A stretch of 64,000 nucleotides of DNA. Source: Pseudomonas fluvialis (GTDB taxonomy: Bacteria; Pseudomonadota; Gammaproteobacteria; Pseudomonadales; Pseudomonadaceae). Positions 27,066 to 33,596 of this stretch are shown in pieces. A program made the translations under genes and the position numbers. Within the stretch, counting starts at the first letter, position 1; each line of letters opens with the position of its first letter. The stretch covers positions 62,001-126,000 of the forward strand of contig NZ_JACHLL010000001.1 in the NCBI RefSeq assembly GCF_014207935.1. Direction: 5' to 3'. The notes beneath the pieces are model-generated. The model was not told where the DNA came from, searched no databases, and saw only the letters and a program-made list of their open reading frames with translations.

Positions 27066-27512
27066 ATGATCAACGCCAAGCTGCTGCAACTGGTAGTCAA
27101 CGCCTCCAATGACGGCATCGTGGTCGCCGAGCAGGAAGGCGATGACAACATCCTCATCTACGTCAATCCGGCGTTCGAGCGCCTGACCGGTTACCACAGC
27201 GACGACATCCTTTATCAGGACTGTCGCTTCCTGCAGGCCGGTGATCGCGAGCAGGCCGGGCTGGCAGCCATCCGCCAGGCGGTGAAGGACAATCGCCCCT
27301 GCCGGCAGATCATCCGTAACTACCGCAAGGACGGCTCGCCCTTCTGGAATGAACTGTCGATCACCCCGGTGTTCAACGAAGGCGACCAGCTGACCTATTA
27401 CATCGGCATCCAGAAGGATGTCACCGAGCAGGTCGAAGCCACCGAACGGGTAAAACAGCTGGAAGCCGAGGTCGCCGAACTCCAGGCCGAACTGGCGAAA
27501 CTGCGCGGTTAG
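27066..27512 (+). CDS. Short LOV blue-light photoreceptor (PpSB-LOV type)
   Basis: A 148-residue protein made of one LOV (PAS) domain and a C-terminal helix without an effector. The chromophore site is complete: YQDCRFLQAGDREQ places the adduct-forming cysteine at residue 53, and NYRKDGSPFWNELSITP and YYIGIQKDVTEQ supply the flavin-contacting Asn and Gln residues. The whole sequence follows the P. putida SB1-/SB2-LOV proteins, whose genes sit next to LitR-type regulators and are needed for light-induced transcription. A predicted coiled coil (VKQLEAEVAELQAELAKL) ends the protein and would mediate dimers. A MerR/LitR-type gene lies 2.7 kb downstream. Confidence 0.95.
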   Translation: MINAKLLQLVVNASNDGIVVAEQEGDDNILIYVNPAFERLTGYHSDDILYQDCRFLQAGDREQAGLAAIRQAVKDNRPCRQIIRNYRKDGSPFWNELSITPVFNEGDQLTYYIGIQKDVTEQVEATERVKQLEAEVAELQAELAKLRG

Positions 27513-27582
27513 AGTCATGTCCCGTCGAAAGGACTGAAAATTGCTTGTTCCTTCGGCAAGCCATTTCCGTCAAAATTCCGAC

Positions 27583-28191
27583 ATGACCGACAAATCCCTG
27601 CTCAACCGCGATGAACTGGAATACATCCAGCAGATTCTCGGCTACAGCCTGAGCCCCAGCACATTGCCCACCCCGACGTTCCGGGTGGATGGCGGTGCCG
27701 CAGCCAATGCGCTGTTCGCGGCACTGGGCAGGCAGGCCGATCTGCATCTGGAGGCGGTATTCGGCGATCAGCGCCTGCGCTTCCCACTGCAACTGGTCGA
27801 AGACGAATTCCATGCCCTGCATCTGGAACTGGGGGCGCCTGGCATCTTTCAAAATGGTCCGGTGCAGCGCCCCTGGCGCCTGCCGCTGGATACCCCGCTG
27901 ACACTGCTGCATGACAATGGCCAGGCCAGCAGTCTGGAGGTGCATGAGCTGTCCCCGGCCGGGGTACTGCTGAAATCCACCGACCTGCTGCCACCACCCG
28001 ACAGCTTTGCCCTGTGGCTGCCGCTGCCCGATCAGGAGCCGGTGTTGCTGCGCGGCAATCGCGTGCGCCATACCAGCAGCGACCTAACCGCCTTCCGTCT
28101 GGAGATGCCGCCGGCCAGTCATGCCGAGCGCCTGCGCCACTTCATTTTCCAGCAGCACCGCCTGCGTCATCCGCAACTGCAGCAGCGCTGA
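27583..28191 (+). CDS. PilZ-like protein, degenerate
   Basis: A 202-residue cytoplasmic protein. The second half resembles a PilZ barrel: QRPWRLPLDTPL is followed by VHELSPAGVLLKST, similar to the (D/N)xSxxG c-di-GMP loop, and a later RGNRVRHTSS strand. However, the arginine motif reads RPWR, one residue shorter than RxxxR, and the loop starts with Glu, so c-di-GMP binding is doubtful. ATG 27583 is preferred over a TTG at 27541. It lies 70 bases after the LOV gene on the same strand with no terminator between, so the two may form one transcript. Alternative reading: an uncharacterised conserved Pseudomonas protein. Confidence 0.6.
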   Translation: MTDKSLLNRDELEYIQQILGYSLSPSTLPTPTFRVDGGAAANALFAALGRQADLHLEAVFGDQRLRFPLQLVEDEFHALHLELGAPGIFQNGPVQRPWRLPLDTPLTLLHDNGQASSLEVHELSPAGVLLKSTDLLPPPDSFALWLPLPDQEPVLLRGNRVRHTSSDLTAFRLEMPPASHAERLRHFIFQQHRLRHPQLQQR

Positions 28192-28218
28192 GACGCACAC
28201 CCTTCTCAAATCGCAGGC

Positions 28219-28258
28219 AAAAAAAATCCGGTAGCCAAAAGTGGGGACGACTACCGGA
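28219..28258 (-). terminator. Minus-strand terminator of the acyl-CoA dehydrogenase gene
   Basis: TCCGGTAG (28227-28234) pairs with CTACCGGA (28251-28258). Read leftward, the stem is followed by eight T residues (A run at 28219-28226). It lies between the convergent PilZ-like and dehydrogenase genes. Confidence 0.85.
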
Positions 28259-28284
28259 GTGCGCAGGCTGTGTGAAGCAATCAA

Positions 28285-30063
28285 TCAGGCAGCAAATTCA
28301 TCCTCGGCAAAGGCCATCAGGGTGGCTTTGCCAGCCTGAACCTCGGCCAGCAGGCTGTCGGTTTCAGTGAGCACGCGAGCCACATAGAAATCCGCCGACT
28401 TGAGCTTGGCGCCATAGAACCGGGTCTCGCTGCTGCCGGCCGCCAGCTTCTGCTGAGCCACCAGGGCCATGCGCGACCACAGCCAGGCCAGCGTGGTGAG
28501 GGCAAACAGGCGCAGGTAAGGCACCGATGCGGCGCCAGCCTGCTCGGGGTCCTTCATGCCTTCGCTGGCAATCCACAAGGTGGCCTGCTGCAGTTGCTTG
28601 AGCGCCTTGCCCACCGCCGCCGCATGCGGCGCCTCGGGATTGGCCTTGAGCCAGCCTTCAACCAGAGCAAAGAAACTGCGTACGGCACGACCGCCGCCGA
28701 GGCCCAGCTTGCGCCCGACCAGATCCAGCGCCTGAATGCCATTGGTGCCTTCGTAGATACGGGTGATGCGGCAGTCACGCACCAGTTGCTCGATTCCCCA
28801 GTCTTCGGTAAAGCCCGAGCCGCCCAGCACCTGCAAGCCCTCGTTGGAACAGTTGTGGCCTTCATCAGTGAGGAACGCCTTGACCACAGGAGTCAGCAGC
28901 TGCACCAGATCGTCGGCCCGCTCCCGAATCTGGGCATCCTCATGCTCGTGCGCCACATCCAGGTGCAGGCCGGTGAAGTAGGCGAGTGCGCGGCAGCCCT
29001 CGATCATCACCTTCTGCCGCAGCAGCATGCGCCGTACGTCCGGGTGCACCAGAATCGGATCAGCCGGCTTGTCGGCAGCCTTGGGACCGGACAGCGAGCG
29101 ACTCTGCAGACGCTCCTTGGCGAAGCCCAGGCTGATCTGGTACGCGCTCTCGGCGATACCCAGTCCCTGCATGCCGACCATCAGGCGCGCCGAGTTCATC
29201 ATGGTGAACATGCACTTGAGGCCCTTGTTCGGCTCGCCGATCAGCCAGCCCTTGGCGCCTTCGAAGTTCATCACGCAAGTAGCCGAGCCCTTGATACCCA
29301 TCTTGTGCTCAAGGCCGCCGCAGAACGCCGGGTTGCGCGAGCCGTCTTCGAGGAACTTGGGCACCAGGAACAGGGAGATACCCTTCACGCTGTCCGGCGC
29401 GTCCGGCAGCTTGGCCAGTACCAGATGGATAATATTGTCGACCAGATCCTGCTCGCCGCCGGTGATCCAGATCTTGGTGCCACTGATGGCGTAGCTGCCG
29501 TCAGCCTGGGGCACGGCGCGGGTGCGGATCAGGCCAAGGTCGGTGCCGCACTGCGGCTCGGTCAGGCACATGGTGCCAGTCCACTCACCGCTGATCAGCT
29601 TGGGCAGGTACTGCTCCTGCTGCTCGCGCGTGCCGTGCTGGGTCAGCGCGTTGATCGCGCCATGGGTCAGGCCCGGGTACATGCCCAGCGACAGGTTGGC
29701 CGAGCAGACCATCTCCTCGACCATCATGTTCAAGACATGCGGCAGGCCCTGACCACCGAACTCTGGGGTACAGGCCAGCGCGGTCCAGCCGCCCTCGGCG
29801 AACTGCTGGTAAGCAGCCTTGAAGCCATCCGGGGTTTTTACCGACTTGCTTTGCGGGTCGTACTGGCAGCCCTGCTTGTCGCCGGGGCCATTGAGCGGCG
29901 CGAGCACGTTCTCCGCCAACTTGGCGGCTTCCTCCAGAATGGCGCCACCGAGATCGTTGCCGAACTCGCGCTGCGTGGGCAGCGACTGCAGGGTGGCATA
30001 AGCGTCGAGCACTTCATCAAAGACAAAGCGCATATCACGTAACGGGGCACGGTAAGCGGGCAT
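28285..30063 (-). CDS. Acyl-CoA dehydrogenase, long (about 590 residues) class
   Basis: A 592-residue FAD enzyme that introduces the first double bond in acyl-CoA breakdown. Motifs include MCLTEPQCGTDLGLIRT (FAD/substrate strand), WITGGEQDL, the active-site region around CRITRIYEGTNGIQALDL with the glutamate base, and an extended C-terminal helical domain shared with Pseudomonas paralogs of this size. ATG 30063 follows GGAGG by five bases. Its promoter region contains three TGTACA-like boxes (30080-30113) typical of LitR/CarH-family operators, and the regulator gene itself is next upstream, so light control is a reasonable inference. The chain length of the substrate is unknown. Confidence 0.92.
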   Translation of the reverse strand: MPAYRAPLRDMRFVFDEVLDAYATLQSLPTQREFGNDLGGAILEEAAKLAENVLAPLNGPGDKQGCQYDPQSKSVKTPDGFKAAYQQFAEGGWTALACTPEFGGQGLPHVLNMMVEEMVCSANLSLGMYPGLTHGAINALTQHGTREQQEQYLPKLISGEWTGTMCLTEPQCGTDLGLIRTRAVPQADGSYAISGTKIWITGGEQDLVDNIIHLVLAKLPDAPDSVKGISLFLVPKFLEDGSRNPAFCGGLEHKMGIKGSATCVMNFEGAKGWLIGEPNKGLKCMFTMMNSARLMVGMQGLGIAESAYQISLGFAKERLQSRSLSGPKAADKPADPILVHPDVRRMLLRQKVMIEGCRALAYFTGLHLDVAHEHEDAQIRERADDLVQLLTPVVKAFLTDEGHNCSNEGLQVLGGSGFTEDWGIEQLVRDCRITRIYEGTNGIQALDLVGRKLGLGGGRAVRSFFALVEGWLKANPEAPHAAAVGKALKQLQQATLWIASEGMKDPEQAGAASVPYLRLFALTTLAWLWSRMALVAQQKLAAGSSETRFYGAKLKSADFYVARVLTETDSLLAEVQAGKATLMAFAEDEFAA

Positions 30064-30079
30064 GTGGGCCTCCAAAATC

Positions 30080-30113
30080 TATACAAGGCAAATTCTTGTA
30101 CAGCTTTTGTATA
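30080..30113 (-). promoter_or_regulatory. Triple TGTACA-type boxes at the acyl-CoA dehydrogenase promoter
   Basis: Plus-strand order: TATACA 30080-30085, TGTACA 30097-30102, TGTATA 30108-30113, with gaps of 11 and 5 bases. On the coding (minus) strand a possible -10, TATAGA, lies at 30083-30078, thirteen bases after the TGTACA box. The boxes fit the direct-repeat operators of LitR/CarH/PplR regulators; the published P. putida consensus, as I recall it, is T(G/A)TACA-N12-TGTA(C/T)A. Confidence 0.65.
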
Positions 30114-30216
30114 GCTTTTTACAAAGGACGTGCAAGTACTTTTCGCTCAGACACAGCAAGAAAGTGACCTGGACAGTGCTATCCGGTCACAAAGCAGCGC
30201 AGAAAGAAGGGAAGGA

Positions 30217-31149
30217 TCAGGTATCCAGATGACCACGCAGCAACTGCTGCAAGCGGCGCTGCAGGGTGCGCGCATCGCTACCCAGGCAGGCGACCGGCGA
30301 GCCGGCCAGCTGTTCTTCGGCCAACTCGGCCACTTCACCCGCTACCGCCAGCGGGCAATCCAGAGCCAGGGCCAGCTTGCCTAATTGACGGGAAAAATCG
30401 GCGGCCGGCGGGTGATTGGAGAACAGTACCAGCAGTTGCGGCTGGAGCTTTTCGCAAACCAGGGTCAGCTCGGCCAGCGGCTGCCCCAACGGCAGTACGG
30501 TCAGGGCAATCTCGCTGCTGGCCAGCAGCACGCCCGCCACCAGCAGCTCCAGCTCATGGCACTGACCGGGAATGGCACTGAGCACCACCCGCGCGCCCTG
30601 CCCCCGCGCCAGTTGCAGGCGCTGCAGCACGCGCCCGCGCAGAAAGGCATCGAGGAACAGCCACTCACTGGTCTGACCGAAACCGTCCTGGCTCAGCAGT
30701 AGCTCCTGCCAGACCGGCAGCAGGACATCCTGAAACACCACCGGCAGCGGGTAACTGGAGAACACCTGGCCGTAGACCTGCTCCAGGCGCGCCTCATCGA
30801 AGGCTGCCACGGCGCGGCGCACCTGACGCTGCCATTCACCCCACTCGCCCAGCGCTACTTCCTCGTACACCGGCGCGGCCGCCGCACGCTGAGCCTCGCT
30901 GCGCTCAAGGATCTTGCCGACCTTGCTCACGGCCACGCCGCGCTCCAGCCAGGCAAGGATGCTGCGCACGGCATCGATATCGGCCTGCGAATACAGGCGA
31001 TGGCCACTGTCGGTGCGGGTCGGCTGAATCAGACCGTAGCGCCGCTCCCAAGCCCGCAGGGTGACCGGATTGACTCCCGTAAGCCGCGATACCTCGCGAA
31101 TCGGAAACAGCTCTTCCTGCTTGAGGGAAGCGGAAACGAGGTCGGTCAT
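30217..31149 (-). CDS. MerR-family regulator of the LitR/CarH/PplR type
   Basis: A 310-residue regulator. The MerR winged helix is at about 12-80 (FPIREVSRLTGVNPVTLRAWERRYGL, then SGHRLYSQADI). The rest has the length and layout of the helical-bundle plus B12-fold region of LitR/CarH. A PGQCHELELL segment corresponds to the histidine loop that ligates cobalamin in CarH, but the W-x9-EH cap motif is missing (the Trp in SEWLFLDAF is followed by LRGRV). This suggests a class II, B12-independent member, the kind that works with short LOV proteins in P. putida. ATG 31149 precedes the domain directly. Two TGTACA boxes in its promoter imply autoregulation. Confidence 0.85.
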   Translation of the reverse strand: MTDLVSASLKQEELFPIREVSRLTGVNPVTLRAWERRYGLIQPTRTDSGHRLYSQADIDAVRSILAWLERGVAVSKVGKILERSEAQRAAAAPVYEEVALGEWGEWQRQVRRAVAAFDEARLEQVYGQVFSSYPLPVVFQDVLLPVWQELLLSQDGFGQTSEWLFLDAFLRGRVLQRLQLARGQGARVVLSAIPGQCHELELLVAGVLLASSEIALTVLPLGQPLAELTLVCEKLQPQLLVLFSNHPPAADFSRQLGKLALALDCPLAVAGEVAELAEEQLAGSPVACLGSDARTLQRRLQQLLRGHLDT

Positions 31150-31210
31150 GGCTAGGTATCGCGCTGATGGGCTTGCCGGCATTGTAACCCAGGGGCCCGA
31201 CGGCTTAAAT

Positions 31211-31227
31211 TGTACAAAAGCTGTACA
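31211..31227. promoter_or_regulatory. Tandem TGTACA boxes between the MerR and DCC genes
   Basis: TGTACA at 31211-31216 and 31222-31227, an 11-bp repeat period as in CarH operators. A possible -10 for the MerR gene on the minus strand (TACAAT, 31214-31209) overlaps one box. For the DCC gene, TTGTAA (31182) -N17- TTAAAT (31205) could be the promoter, with the boxes just downstream of it. Confidence 0.7.
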
Positions 31228-31240
31228 AAGGAAGCCCATC

Positions 31241-31660
31241 ATGCTGCCACACTGGCCACTACGCCTGTACTACGACGGTGATTGCCCGCTGTGCGCGCGA
31301 GAAGTTGCCCTGCTACGCCGTCGCAACAGTGCCGAGCGGCTGGTACTGATCGATATCAGCCAGCCGGATTTCGACCCAACCAGCACGCCATTCAGCCTGA
31401 TACAGCTGCAGACCGTGCTGCACGCACAGGACGCCAACGGCCACTGGCTGAAAGGACTCGACGCCACCTATGCCAGCTGGCTGGCCGCAGACCTCTGGCA
31501 ACTCAGCTGGCTACTGGCCTGGCGTCCGCTGCGCAGCCTGCTGCATCCACTGTACTGGCTCTTCTGCTGGCTCCGCCCCGGCCTAACCTGGCTTCCCCAT
31601 CCAGATGGCGCCAGTCGCTGCACTCAGGATCGCTGCGCCCCCGGCAAACGCCGGAACTGA
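31241..31660 (+). CDS. DCC-family (DUF393, YuxK-like) putative thiol-disulfide protein
   Basis: A 139-residue protein. YYDGDCPLCAREV near the N-terminus (DGDCPLC at 12-18) is the DCC motif: an acidic residue followed by CxxC, seen in thioredoxin-like proteins of unknown substrate. The C-terminal half is hydrophobic and Trp-rich (LLAWRPLRSLLHPLYWLFCWL), suggesting membrane contact. AAGGAAG lies seven bases before the ATG. It is divergent from the LitR-type regulator and shares a promoter with tandem TGTACA boxes, so it probably belongs to the same regulon. The function is unknown. Confidence 0.85.
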   Translation: MLPHWPLRLYYDGDCPLCAREVALLRRRNSAERLVLIDISQPDFDPTSTPFSLIQLQTVLHAQDANGHWLKGLDATYASWLAADLWQLSWLLAWRPLRSLLHPLYWLFCWLRPGLTWLPHPDGASRCTQDRCAPGKRRN

Positions 31661-31936
31661 CCCTCGCCCAGATAAATCTGCTCAATTCCATTACAAGAAA
31701 ACCAAACATGTACAACAAAGAGAAAGCATTCACCTCCCCAAGAAGCCCACTAATACCCTGAAAATGCCGGAAAATCGGCTTTCAGCTCACCCACCCGCTT
31801 TATCCACACGCAGCGCATGGTTGTACAAAATAAAATCGTGGTATAAGTTTACATCAAGTTCAGTCGGCCAAAAGCAGCTTTGGTCAGGTTATGCCGGCGG
31901 TCGCTGAACCCTACTCTTTCTGCCCACGAGGCCTGC
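31661..31936. other. Intergenic region before folM with a LitR-type box
   Basis: No gene is seen. A lone TGTACA is at 31709-31714. Nearer folM, TGTACA at 31822-31827 is followed after 12 bases by GGTATA (31840-31845), close to the P. putida light-operator spacing as I recall it. TATAAG (31842-31847) is a probable -10, giving an untranslated leader of about 80 bases. Confidence 0.6.
31822..31845 (+). promoter_or_regulatory. TGTACA-N12-GGTATA box at the folM promoter
   Basis: TGTACA (31822-31827), 12-base gap, GGTATA (31840-31845): one mismatch to the reported PplR1 site T(G/A)TACA-N12-TGTA(C/T)A as I remember it. It overlaps the probable -10 TATAAG. The same geometry, a TGTACA box 13-14 bases before the -10, is seen at the acyl-CoA dehydrogenase promoter. 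Confidence 0.65.
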
Positions 31937-32647
31937 ATGAGCACGCAATCCGCCCCCATCCTGATCACCGGCGCCAGCCAGCGTATTGGCCTGCATTGCG
32001 CCGAGCGATTGCTGGACAGCGGCCAGCCCGTGATCATCAGCTATCGCAGCGAGCGACCAGGAGTTGGAAAACTGCGGGAGCGCGGCGCTATCTGCCTGCC
32101 GGCCGATTTCGCCAGCGAAGCCGGCATCCTGGCCTTCATCGACCAACTCAAGCAGCACACTGACTGCCTGCGTGCGATTGTGCACAACGCCTCGGCCTGG
32201 CTGAACGAAACACCCGGTCATGAGGCAGAAGCCTTCCAGCAGCTGTTCAGTGTGCACATGCTGGCGCCCTATCTGATCAACCTGCACTGCGCCGAGCTGC
32301 TGCGCCGGTCGCAACCGGCCGACATCGTGCACATCAGCGACGATGTCGCCCGCAAGGGCAGCGCCAACCGCATTGCCTACTGCGCCAGCAAGGCTGGTCT
32401 GGACAGCCTGACCCTGTCCTTTGCCGCCCAACTGGCACCGCAGATCAAGGTCAACGGCATCGCGCCGGCACTGATCCAGTTCAACGAAGACGATGACGAC
32501 GAATACCGCAGCAAGACGCTGGCCAAATCCGCTCTGGGCATAGAGCCCGGCGCCGAGGTGATCTACCAGAGCCTGCGCTATCTGCTGGACAACCCCTACG
32601 TCACGGGCACCACCCTGACGGTCAACGGCGGCCGCCATCTCAAGTAA
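31937..32647 (+). CDS. folM: Dihydromonapterin reductase FolM (SDR family)
   Basis: A 236-residue SDR that reduces dihydromonapterin to tetrahydromonapterin (and dihydrofolate weakly) with [21 protein letters not shown] is the cofactor loop with the Arg/Gln pattern of FolM and pteridine reductases; the catalytic pair is in [12 protein letters not shown]; the end [14 protein letters not shown] is typical. It is directly followed by folE and folX, which make its substrate. In Pseudomonas tetrahydromonapterin is the cofactor of phenylalanine hydroxylase. ATG 31937 is the first in-frame start next to the conserved domain. Confidence 0.93.
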
Positions 32648-32666
32648 GGCCGCGAGGACAATTGCC

Positions 32667-33224
32667 ATGCCGCTTATTTCCGATCACTACCGCGAAATCC
32701 TTGTGGGTCTCGGTGAAAACCCGGAGCGCGAGGGCCTGCTGGACACCCCCAAGCGCGCCGCCAAGGCCATGCAGTACCTGTGCAACGGCTATGAGAAGAC
32801 CCTCGACGAGATCGTCAACGGCGCCCTGTTTGCTTCCGACAACGACGAGATGGTGATCGTCAAGGACATCGAGCTGTACTCGCTGTGCGAGCATCACCTG
32901 CTGCCGTTCATCGGCAAGGCCCATGTGGCCTACATTCCCACCGGCAAGGTACTGGGCCTCTCCAAGGTCGCCCGCATCGTCGACATGTTTGCCCGGCGCC
33001 TGCAGATCCAGGAGAACCTCACGCGGCAGATCGCCGAGGCCATCCAGCAGGTCACCAATGCCGCCGGCGTTGCCGTGGTGATCGAGGCCAAGCACATGTG
33101 CATGATGATGCGCGGCGTGGAGAAGCAGAATTCGGTGATGAACACCTCGGTGATGCTCGGCGCCTTCCGCGAGTCGTGCAACACTCGCCAGGAATTCCTC
33201 ACCCTGATTGGACGGAGCAAGTAA
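32667..33224 (+). CDS. folE: GTP cyclohydrolase I
   Basis: A 185-residue enzyme that opens GTP and forms dihydroneopterin triphosphate. The zinc ligands are in [10 protein letters not shown] (Cys and His near residue 74) and the second Cys in [11 protein letters not shown]; the catalytic region [17 protein letters not shown] is complete. It begins 19 bases after folM and ends directly before folX (TAA then ATG). In P. putida a folE gene is reported as light-induced, consistent with the TGTACA boxes before this operon. It may be one of several folE copies in the genome. Confidence 0.96.
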
Positions 33225-33596
33225 ATGCCGCGACTGGAACCGGGAATGGCGCGCATCCGCGTCAAGGATCTGCGCCTGCGCACCTTTATCGGTATCAAGG
33301 AAGAGGAAATCCTCAATAAGCAGGACGTACTGATCAACCTGACCATCCTCTACCCCGCGCAGGAAGCAGTGCGTGACAACGATATCGACCATGCCCTTAA
33401 CTACCGCACCATCACCAAGGCAGTGATTCGTCACGTCGAGGAAAACCGTTTCTCCCTGCTCGAACGCCTGACCCAGGAAATCCTCGATCTGGTCATGCAG
33501 AACCCGGCCGTACGCTACGCCGAGGTGGAAGTGGACAAGCTGCACGCCCTGCGCTTTGCCGAGTCGGTCTCCATTACCCTGGCCGGCCACCGCTGA
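33225..33596 (+). CDS. folX: Dihydroneopterin triphosphate 2'-epimerase
   Basis: A 123-residue member of the FolB/FolX tunnel-fold family that converts dihydroneopterin triphosphate to the monapterin epimer. [20 protein letters not shown] and the [17 protein letters not shown] segment are typical, and the conserved glutamate region is [12 protein letters not shown]. The start codon follows the folE stop without a gap. Together folE, folX and folM form a complete route from GTP to tetrahydromonapterin apart from a phosphatase, which separates it from classical folate synthesis. Confidence 0.92.

Follow-up and report, generated by a model that had tools for sequence, protein, structure and literature searches.

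A 64-kb stretch of the 3.95-Mb genome of Pseudomonas fluvialis (C1:62001-126000; hereafter the window) contains the genes of a candidate blue-light switch and, beside its regulator gene, a gene for an acyl-CoA dehydrogenase (ACAD) that stands behind boxes of the type the regulator is predicted to bind. Between 26520 and 33596 the order is flavodoxin (minus strand), a short LOV receptor (plus), a 202-residue protein (plus), ACAD (minus), the regulator LitR (minus), a DCC-family protein (plus) and folM-folE-folX (plus). Pfam and NCBIfam searches with the window proteins returned the PAS domain, acyl-CoA dehydrogenase, MerR, DCC1-like, dihydromonapterin reductase, FolE and dihydroneopterin triphosphate epimerase families. 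All of the genes named in the original prediction—LOV, ACAD, LitR, DCC and folM-folE-folX—are there as open frames with family matches. The TGTACA-type boxes it had placed at the operon and regulator promoters stand at the folM and LitR/DCC promoters and also at that of ACAD, so that gene set and boxes are confirmed at 27066-33596, with T(G/A)TACA the form at the target promoters.

The ACAD gene (28285..30063, minus; 592 residues, assigned from Pfam and PDB matches) is preceded by a predicted LitR operator, TATACA-N5-TGTACA-N11-TGTATA (30080..30113, minus), located by pattern search, and the first box of this operator falls at the predicted -10. A predicted -35, TTGCAC (30130..30135, minus), read from the sequence and from relatives, lies 16 bp from the TATACA box, and a terminator-like hairpin follows the gene (28219..28259, minus); relatives carry similar hairpins behind ACAD, as judged by eye. 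LitR itself (30217..31149, minus; 310 residues) is a predicted class II member of the LitR/CarH-family MerR regulators by Pfam and NCBIfam. Between LitR and DCC, pattern search places a second predicted operator, TGTACA-N5-TGTACA (31211..31227, assigned to neither strand), whose boxes begin directly after a DCC promoter predicted by reading the sequence, TTGTAA-N17-TTAAAT (31182..31210, plus). Genes, boxes, box conservation and the placing over or just after the predicted -10 of ACAD and DCC are what the sequence analysis shows, and such a placing, at the -10 in one case and directly after the promoter in the other, fits a repressor. The DCC gene (31241..31660, plus) encodes a putative thiol-disulfide oxidoreductase-like protein of 139 residues (PF04134 at E 3.5e-19), in which the DGxCxxC motif, kept in 38 of 39 relatives, reads DGDCPLC. 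Further along the plus strand come the element TGTACA-N12-GGTATA (31822..31845), which has the form described for the P. mendocina folM upstream region, and then folM, dihydromonapterin reductase (31937..32647, NCBIfam), folE, GTP cyclohydrolase I (32667..33224, Pfam and NCBIfam), and folX, dihydroneopterin triphosphate 2'-epimerase (33225..33596, NCBIfam). A further TGTACA at 31709 was left out of account, being missing from the folM upstream region of the near relative L055.

In the window TGTACA occurs 16 times, against 4.4 expected and a maximum of 10 in 100 shuffles, and five of the 16 lie at 30097-31827. The paired form TRTACA-N5-TGTACA is found at only three places in the genome, two of them at this locus (reversed control 0). 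Box conservation was followed through 80 named LOV loci (1.52 Mb), the best of 412 confirmed in a scan with 14 aligned LOV proteins; P. aeruginosa loci are not among them. Across these loci TRTACA-N5-TRTACA occurs 53 times—16 before ACAD, 26 before DCC, three before LitR and eight elsewhere—and the reversed N5 motif never. Other spacings are N12 (17; four at folM, 13 elsewhere), N11 (14; seven at ACAD, three at folM), N7 (two) and N9 (none). Five of the eight pairs elsewhere fall in the slot after LitR (L058, L090, L106, L109, L132), and the other three (L086, L100, L112) lie, by eye, near rudS- or second-LitR-like frames. With at most one mismatch and within 150 bp upstream, the N5 pair precedes all 17 ACAD genes counted (18 loci have ACAD; L116, which ends inside the gene, was dropped), compared with 5 of 1020 shuffled ACAD upstream regions, and all 39 DCC genes; it precedes LitR in 51 of 64 cases, many through the region shared with DCC. 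The upstream regions of flavodoxin (68), LOV (80), the 202-residue protein (57) and folX (59) contain nothing below three mismatches to this pair. The folM element is exact in 44 of 52 loci. In 17/17 linked loci and in 16/21 orthologs the first ACAD box lies where a -10 would be expected, with a TTGC 15-16 bp ahead of it.

A 34-bp pattern, TRTACA-N5-TRTACA-N11-TGTAYA, was written from the ACAD promoters beside LitR and then searched genome-wide. It occurs at 15 places in 14 of 248 Pseudomonadaceae genomes, and 18 of 298 genus genomes have 19 such places; once repeats are removed, 30 distinct places remain in 522 distinct genomes, and the reversed control finds none. Twenty-five of the 30 sit 16-38 nucleotides before an ACAD ortholog, 16 of them with LitR adjacent and nine without LitR in the 1.5 kb retrieved to either side; in those nine the same boxes stand 18-19 nucleotides before the ACAD start. 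The pattern otherwise marks the DUF6482-cryB promoter, its only other place in P. fluvialis; a DUF6482 promoter in G287, a genome in which no match to cryB was obtained; two DUF3833-SDR operons (G179, G497), the genes of which follow ACAD in other genomes; and the slot after LitR, without ACAD, in G050. The cryB site speaks for light control: in P. mendocina, cryB belongs to the units that respond to light, according to the passages cited from PMC9758184. When orthologs are instead collected at E<=1e-240, ACAD is present in 21 of the 248 genomes, and at least two TRTACA boxes lie within 120 bp of it in 21/21, against 11/4200 shuffles. Judged by its promoter, this ACAD belongs among the strong predicted members of the regulon.

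The orthologs occur in four settings: between the gene for the 202-residue protein and LitR; beside LitR and the fol genes, where LOV is some 12 kb away (G194) or lacking nearby (G163); ahead of DUF3833, in some cases together with SDR (G171, G155, G042, G246); and with none of these genes around (G026, G040). In P. chengduensis-type genomes, for example, ACAD is located away from LitR. Where ACAD precedes DUF3833, the arrangement suggests a shared light-lipid function. In G171, G155 and G042 (L171, L172, L176) DUF3833 follows ACAD, SDR is present in two of the three, and in L176 a chalcone-isomerase-like frame, by eye, stands between. In G246 (L177) a divergent LitR (48% identical), LOV, DUF3833 and ACAD form one cluster. 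The reverse situation also occurs: in L058, L109 and L132 the slot after LitR lacks ACAD, keeps the boxes and ends, by eye, in an ACAD-type terminator, with no evident common sequence between the two. LitR-type boxes without an ACAD frame also follow LitR in L090, L106 and G050. Such slots may be scars of ACAD loss or may yield a light-controlled short transcript; ACAD loss is the simpler reading.

What the enzyme would do can be gauged from its closest solved relatives, P. aeruginosa FadE1 (8pns, 688 bits) and FadE2 (8png, 655 bits). The assignment of the four PDB entries to FadE1 and FadE2 was taken, through the cited part of PMC11890623, from the E441A (8pu5) and triple-mutant variants. Aligned to FadE1 (PA0506), the window ACAD has the catalytic glutamate, within the iyEgt motif, and at the open acyl tunnel its Gly, Ala and Gln equal FadE1 Gly129, Ala295 and Gln302, the three positions that set chain length according to the same passages. 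A long-chain acyl-CoA preference is therefore predicted, and the enzyme is probably FadE1-like and long-chain. The two differ in control: FadE1 is described in those passages as induced by growth on fatty acids, whereas the window gene lies behind LitR-type boxes. One source (P0006) names a close homolog 3-methylmercaptopropionyl-CoA dehydrogenase. Identity with the furan-fatty-acid desaturase UfaD was rejected, since UfaD has, in the part of PMC7380195 cited, an NAD-FAD-binding domain related to phytoene desaturases; a UfaD-like oxidoreductase frame can be seen by eye in the rudS-phrB cluster of this genome.

The LOV receptor (27066..27512, plus; 148 residues, assigned by Pfam and a PDB match) retains the photoactive cysteine, Cys53 within YQDCRFLQ. 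Its best PDB match over residues 1-147, at 244 bits, is 7r5n, a 'Sensory box protein' that we take to be a short LOV; N-cap and J-alpha are judged present from this end-to-end alignment only, and there is no effector domain. At E<=1e-25 the genome has a single short LOV. It encodes two LitR-type regulators; the second, at C7:84430, adjoins rudS and phrB, and both have a MerR domain by Pfam.

Much of this arrangement has a published counterpart in P. mendocina NBRC 14162 (Maruyama 2022, PMC9758184; statements here rest on passages of that paper). There the class II LitR PmlR2 acts in vitro as a repressor of a light-inducible promoter; PmSB-LOV, once activated by blue light, binds the PmlR2 N-terminal domain and relieves repression. 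The genes folM, folE and folX make up one induced operon, preceded at folM by TGTACA-N12-GGTATA. Both loci have a short LOV, a class II LitR and the fol operon with this element, and both genomes have one LOV and two LitR proteins, which makes the loci equivalent. Because the genes and the folM element are the same, the window switch, on sequence grounds, is a further member of the kind described. The window lacks a TRTACA-type box upstream of LOV, which fits the constant LOV expression of P. mendocina. Of the original prediction, the light-response reading with folE as a target stands by homology to that locus, the regulator does appear to be class II, and ACAD and DCC stay predicted regulon members by their shared boxes. 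LOV and LitR beside folM-folE-folX do not count as a novelty: this is the published pmlR2 region, and the arrangement recurs in relatives. The new part is the ACAD behind LitR-type boxes; the sensor-repressor core is already in print. A limited open-access literature search found no link of ACAD to LitR or LOV, though one may yet stand in Table S1 of Maruyama 2022 or in the lists of Sumi 2020. Neither 'acyl' nor 'DCC' appears in the main text of PMC9758184, and the neighbours PME15555 and PME15565 are given no function there. Only one paper, on V. cholerae, contained the terms acyl-CoA dehydrogenase, LOV and LitR together; the acyl-CoA dehydrogenases that rise in blue light there are others.

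The work of Sumi et al. 2020 on P. putida KT2440, whose regulator and LOV families are those of the window, is said to pair PplR1-3 with PpSB1-LOV and PpSB2-LOV and to list folE, phrB, ufaM and cryB as targets. That species has two LOVs and three LitR proteins, and the citing passages name no ACAD among its targets. Operators of the CarH family (Thermus, Bacillus, myxobacteria) offer a second comparison: in the passages from PMC9304148 they are tandem 11-bp repeats of TnnACA, three or more, overlapping promoter elements. In the window, ACAD and LitR/DCC each have two TnnACA repeats at an 11-bp interval, and this spacing and core, by sequence, are those of CarH operators. CarH systems differ in that their regulators are mostly B12-dependent and their targets carotenoid genes (same passages).

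Taken together, these observations make it probable, in our judgment, that the locus is a blue-light switch in which LitR occupies TRTACA boxes in the dark and is released by illuminated LOV, so that the fol operon, DCC and ACAD are light-induced. LitR would act in the dark as a repressor on TRTACA-type boxes at three promoters; illuminated LOV would likely pull it off the DNA; and blue light would then turn on folM-folE-folX, the DCC gene and the FadE1-like ACAD gene. The role of LOV as a light-dependent anti-repressor and the induction of folM-folE-folX would carry over from P. mendocina by analogy. We infer that the boxes are bound by LitR or its paralog at C7:84430, that light induces ACAD and DCC and that long-chain acyl-CoA is the substrate of the enzyme, whose most likely use would be membrane fatty acid turnover under light stress. 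Several points weigh against this proposal. Light regulation of ACAD is a prediction in this organism and for every ortholog. The exact 34-bp pattern is present in 12 of the 21 orthologs and absent in nine, and the TTGC element is absent in five of the 21. Hits beside LitR are circular, because the pattern was written after viewing LitR-linked ACAD promoters, and the independent ones are only those away from LitR and at other genes; many of these may in turn stem from one lineage, and the counts are not independent events because many genomes are close relatives. The window boxes at ACAD and DCC have N5 spacing, whereas the published class II LitR consensus has N12. Finally, the light response of the P. 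mendocina locus is weak: 2.4-2.5-fold for folM, 1.4-1.5-fold for pmlR2 and 0.9-1.1-fold for LOV (passages of PMC9758184).

Could the regulator itself sense light through adenosyl-B12, as a class I CarH, with LOV a neighbour without a role? The best solved matches of LitR are indeed a Thermus-type regulator and CarH (3whp, 5c8d), and the NCBIfam CarH model reaches E 6e-25, though at 88 bits against a cut-off of 400. Yet at E<=0.001 the protein matches only MerR models, with no B12-binding Pfam match, and GERHEIG of CarH, presumably the B12 motif, reads GQCHELE here. For a retained four-helix B12-binding_2 domain the signs are mixed: Pfam matches it in the paralog and not in this LitR, and the phmmer alignment to CarH covers residues 13-242. 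In P. putida, B12 is not required, and when both LOVs are lost transcription stays low and constant, illuminated or not (cited in PMC9758184, in part). We regard this possibility as very remote. Appreciably less remote, while still unlikely, is that the second LitR is the chief occupant of the boxes, with the local one acting elsewhere or jointly. The shared MerR domain allows it, and the three PplR proteins of P. putida act together according to the same passages, which also report, on the other side, that PmlR2, the counterpart of the local regulator, binds the folM promoter in P. mendocina.

A different objection takes ACAD for a metabolic gene with no tie to LitR, placed beside it by chance; the boxes there would serve LitR or be relics, and ACAD would be under no light control. 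The slots after LitR that carry boxes without an ACAD frame, in L058, L109 and L132 as in L090, L106 and G050, speak for it. The boxes at every one of the orthologs do not, nor do the nine of 25 ACAD sites that keep them without a LitR in the 1.5 kb retrieved to either side; and the ACAD-type terminators left in L058, L109 and L132 are what ACAD loss would leave behind. We consider this objection improbable, and prefer ACAD as a light-induced target of the LOV-LitR switch.

Elsewhere in the genome, TRTACA-N12-TGTACA occurs at five places (reversed control 0). Two of them precede rudS-litR-phrB, one lies at cryB, another precedes an FAD oxidoreductase, and the last, at C10:7371, is some 120 bp ahead of a DUF3833-SDR pair. 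The rudS promoter layout, TTGACT-N16-TATGAT, is that reported for P. mendocina P6650 in PMC9758184, as far as its passages show. Under light stress, ACAD would have as company the photolyase, cryptochrome-like and tRNA-desulfidase (RudS) genes that lie behind the same boxes. A broader reading is offered more tentatively, at somewhat less than even confidence: a long-chain ACAD may be a core LOV-LitR output that has moved among genomes with its light operator—next to LitR, before DUF3833-SDR, or alone—and that, in light, passes altered membrane fatty acids on to beta-oxidation, in parallel with furan-fatty-acid synthesis, which would share its regulator. Accounts of light responses in non-photosynthetic bacteria deal mostly with DNA repair, pigments and membrane protection; if the link is real, a fatty-acid oxidation enzyme under a blue-light switch ties central lipid metabolism to light. 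The conserved 34-bp signature makes it directly testable in several species.

Comparison of the 80 loci places LOV, LitR and DCC as common parts and ACAD as confined to a subset. LitR is present in 66 (absent from the fetched stretch in 14), DCC in 39, folM in 53, the gene for the 202-residue protein in 57 and ACAD in 18. LOV, that gene and LitR lie within 6 kb in 47, of which 46 have folM-folE-folX, 30 a divergent DCC and 15 ACAD. The ACAD-bearing subset includes P. anguilliseptica, P. peli, P. guineae, P. cuatrocienegasensis and P. fluvialis; ACAD was not detected at three loci of P. mendocina (L065, L097, L124). The closest named relative fetched with all nine genes is Pseudomonas sp. HAR-UPW-AIA-41 (L055), at 92-99% per protein.

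The gene between LOV and ACAD (27583..28191, plus), which encodes the 202-residue protein, was omitted from the original prediction. Single-sequence Pfam and NCBIfam searches returned no match for it. PilZ (PF07238) is nevertheless matched by 14 of 26 aligned relatives when E up to 1 is allowed (best 3.5e-8), the window copy itself not among them. Its AlphaFold2 model (mean pLDDT 78.5) finds MotI/DgrA, MrkH, BcsA, YcgR and single PilZ domains by Foldseek, with query TM of 0.35-0.41 and large root-mean-square deviation to MotI, MrkH and YcgR. Its treatment as a function-less unknown was rejected on the relatives' matches and the fold, and the protein, as modeled, is YcgR/PilZ-like. RxWR is invariant in the 26 relatives and the SxxG part is kept in most, not all; set against RxxxR and (D/N)xSxxG, which we take to be the cyclic di-GMP (c-di-GMP) motifs of PilZ, these are degenerate. 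A c-di-GMP link to the light switch through this protein is possible. The locus also suggests identities for unnamed genes of the published P. mendocina locus. In the passages of PMC9758184 the cluster pmlR2-PME15565-pmSB-LOV is termed conserved, and gene order suggests that PME15565 is a YcgR/PilZ-like protein and that PME15555 is either the DCC protein or a 188-residue frame that stands there in some relatives. Where DCC is missing (L066, L083, L089, L092 and others), a frame of about 188-190 residues, beginning MSPVTLMVARRVANGRYHDF, often lies between LitR and folM.

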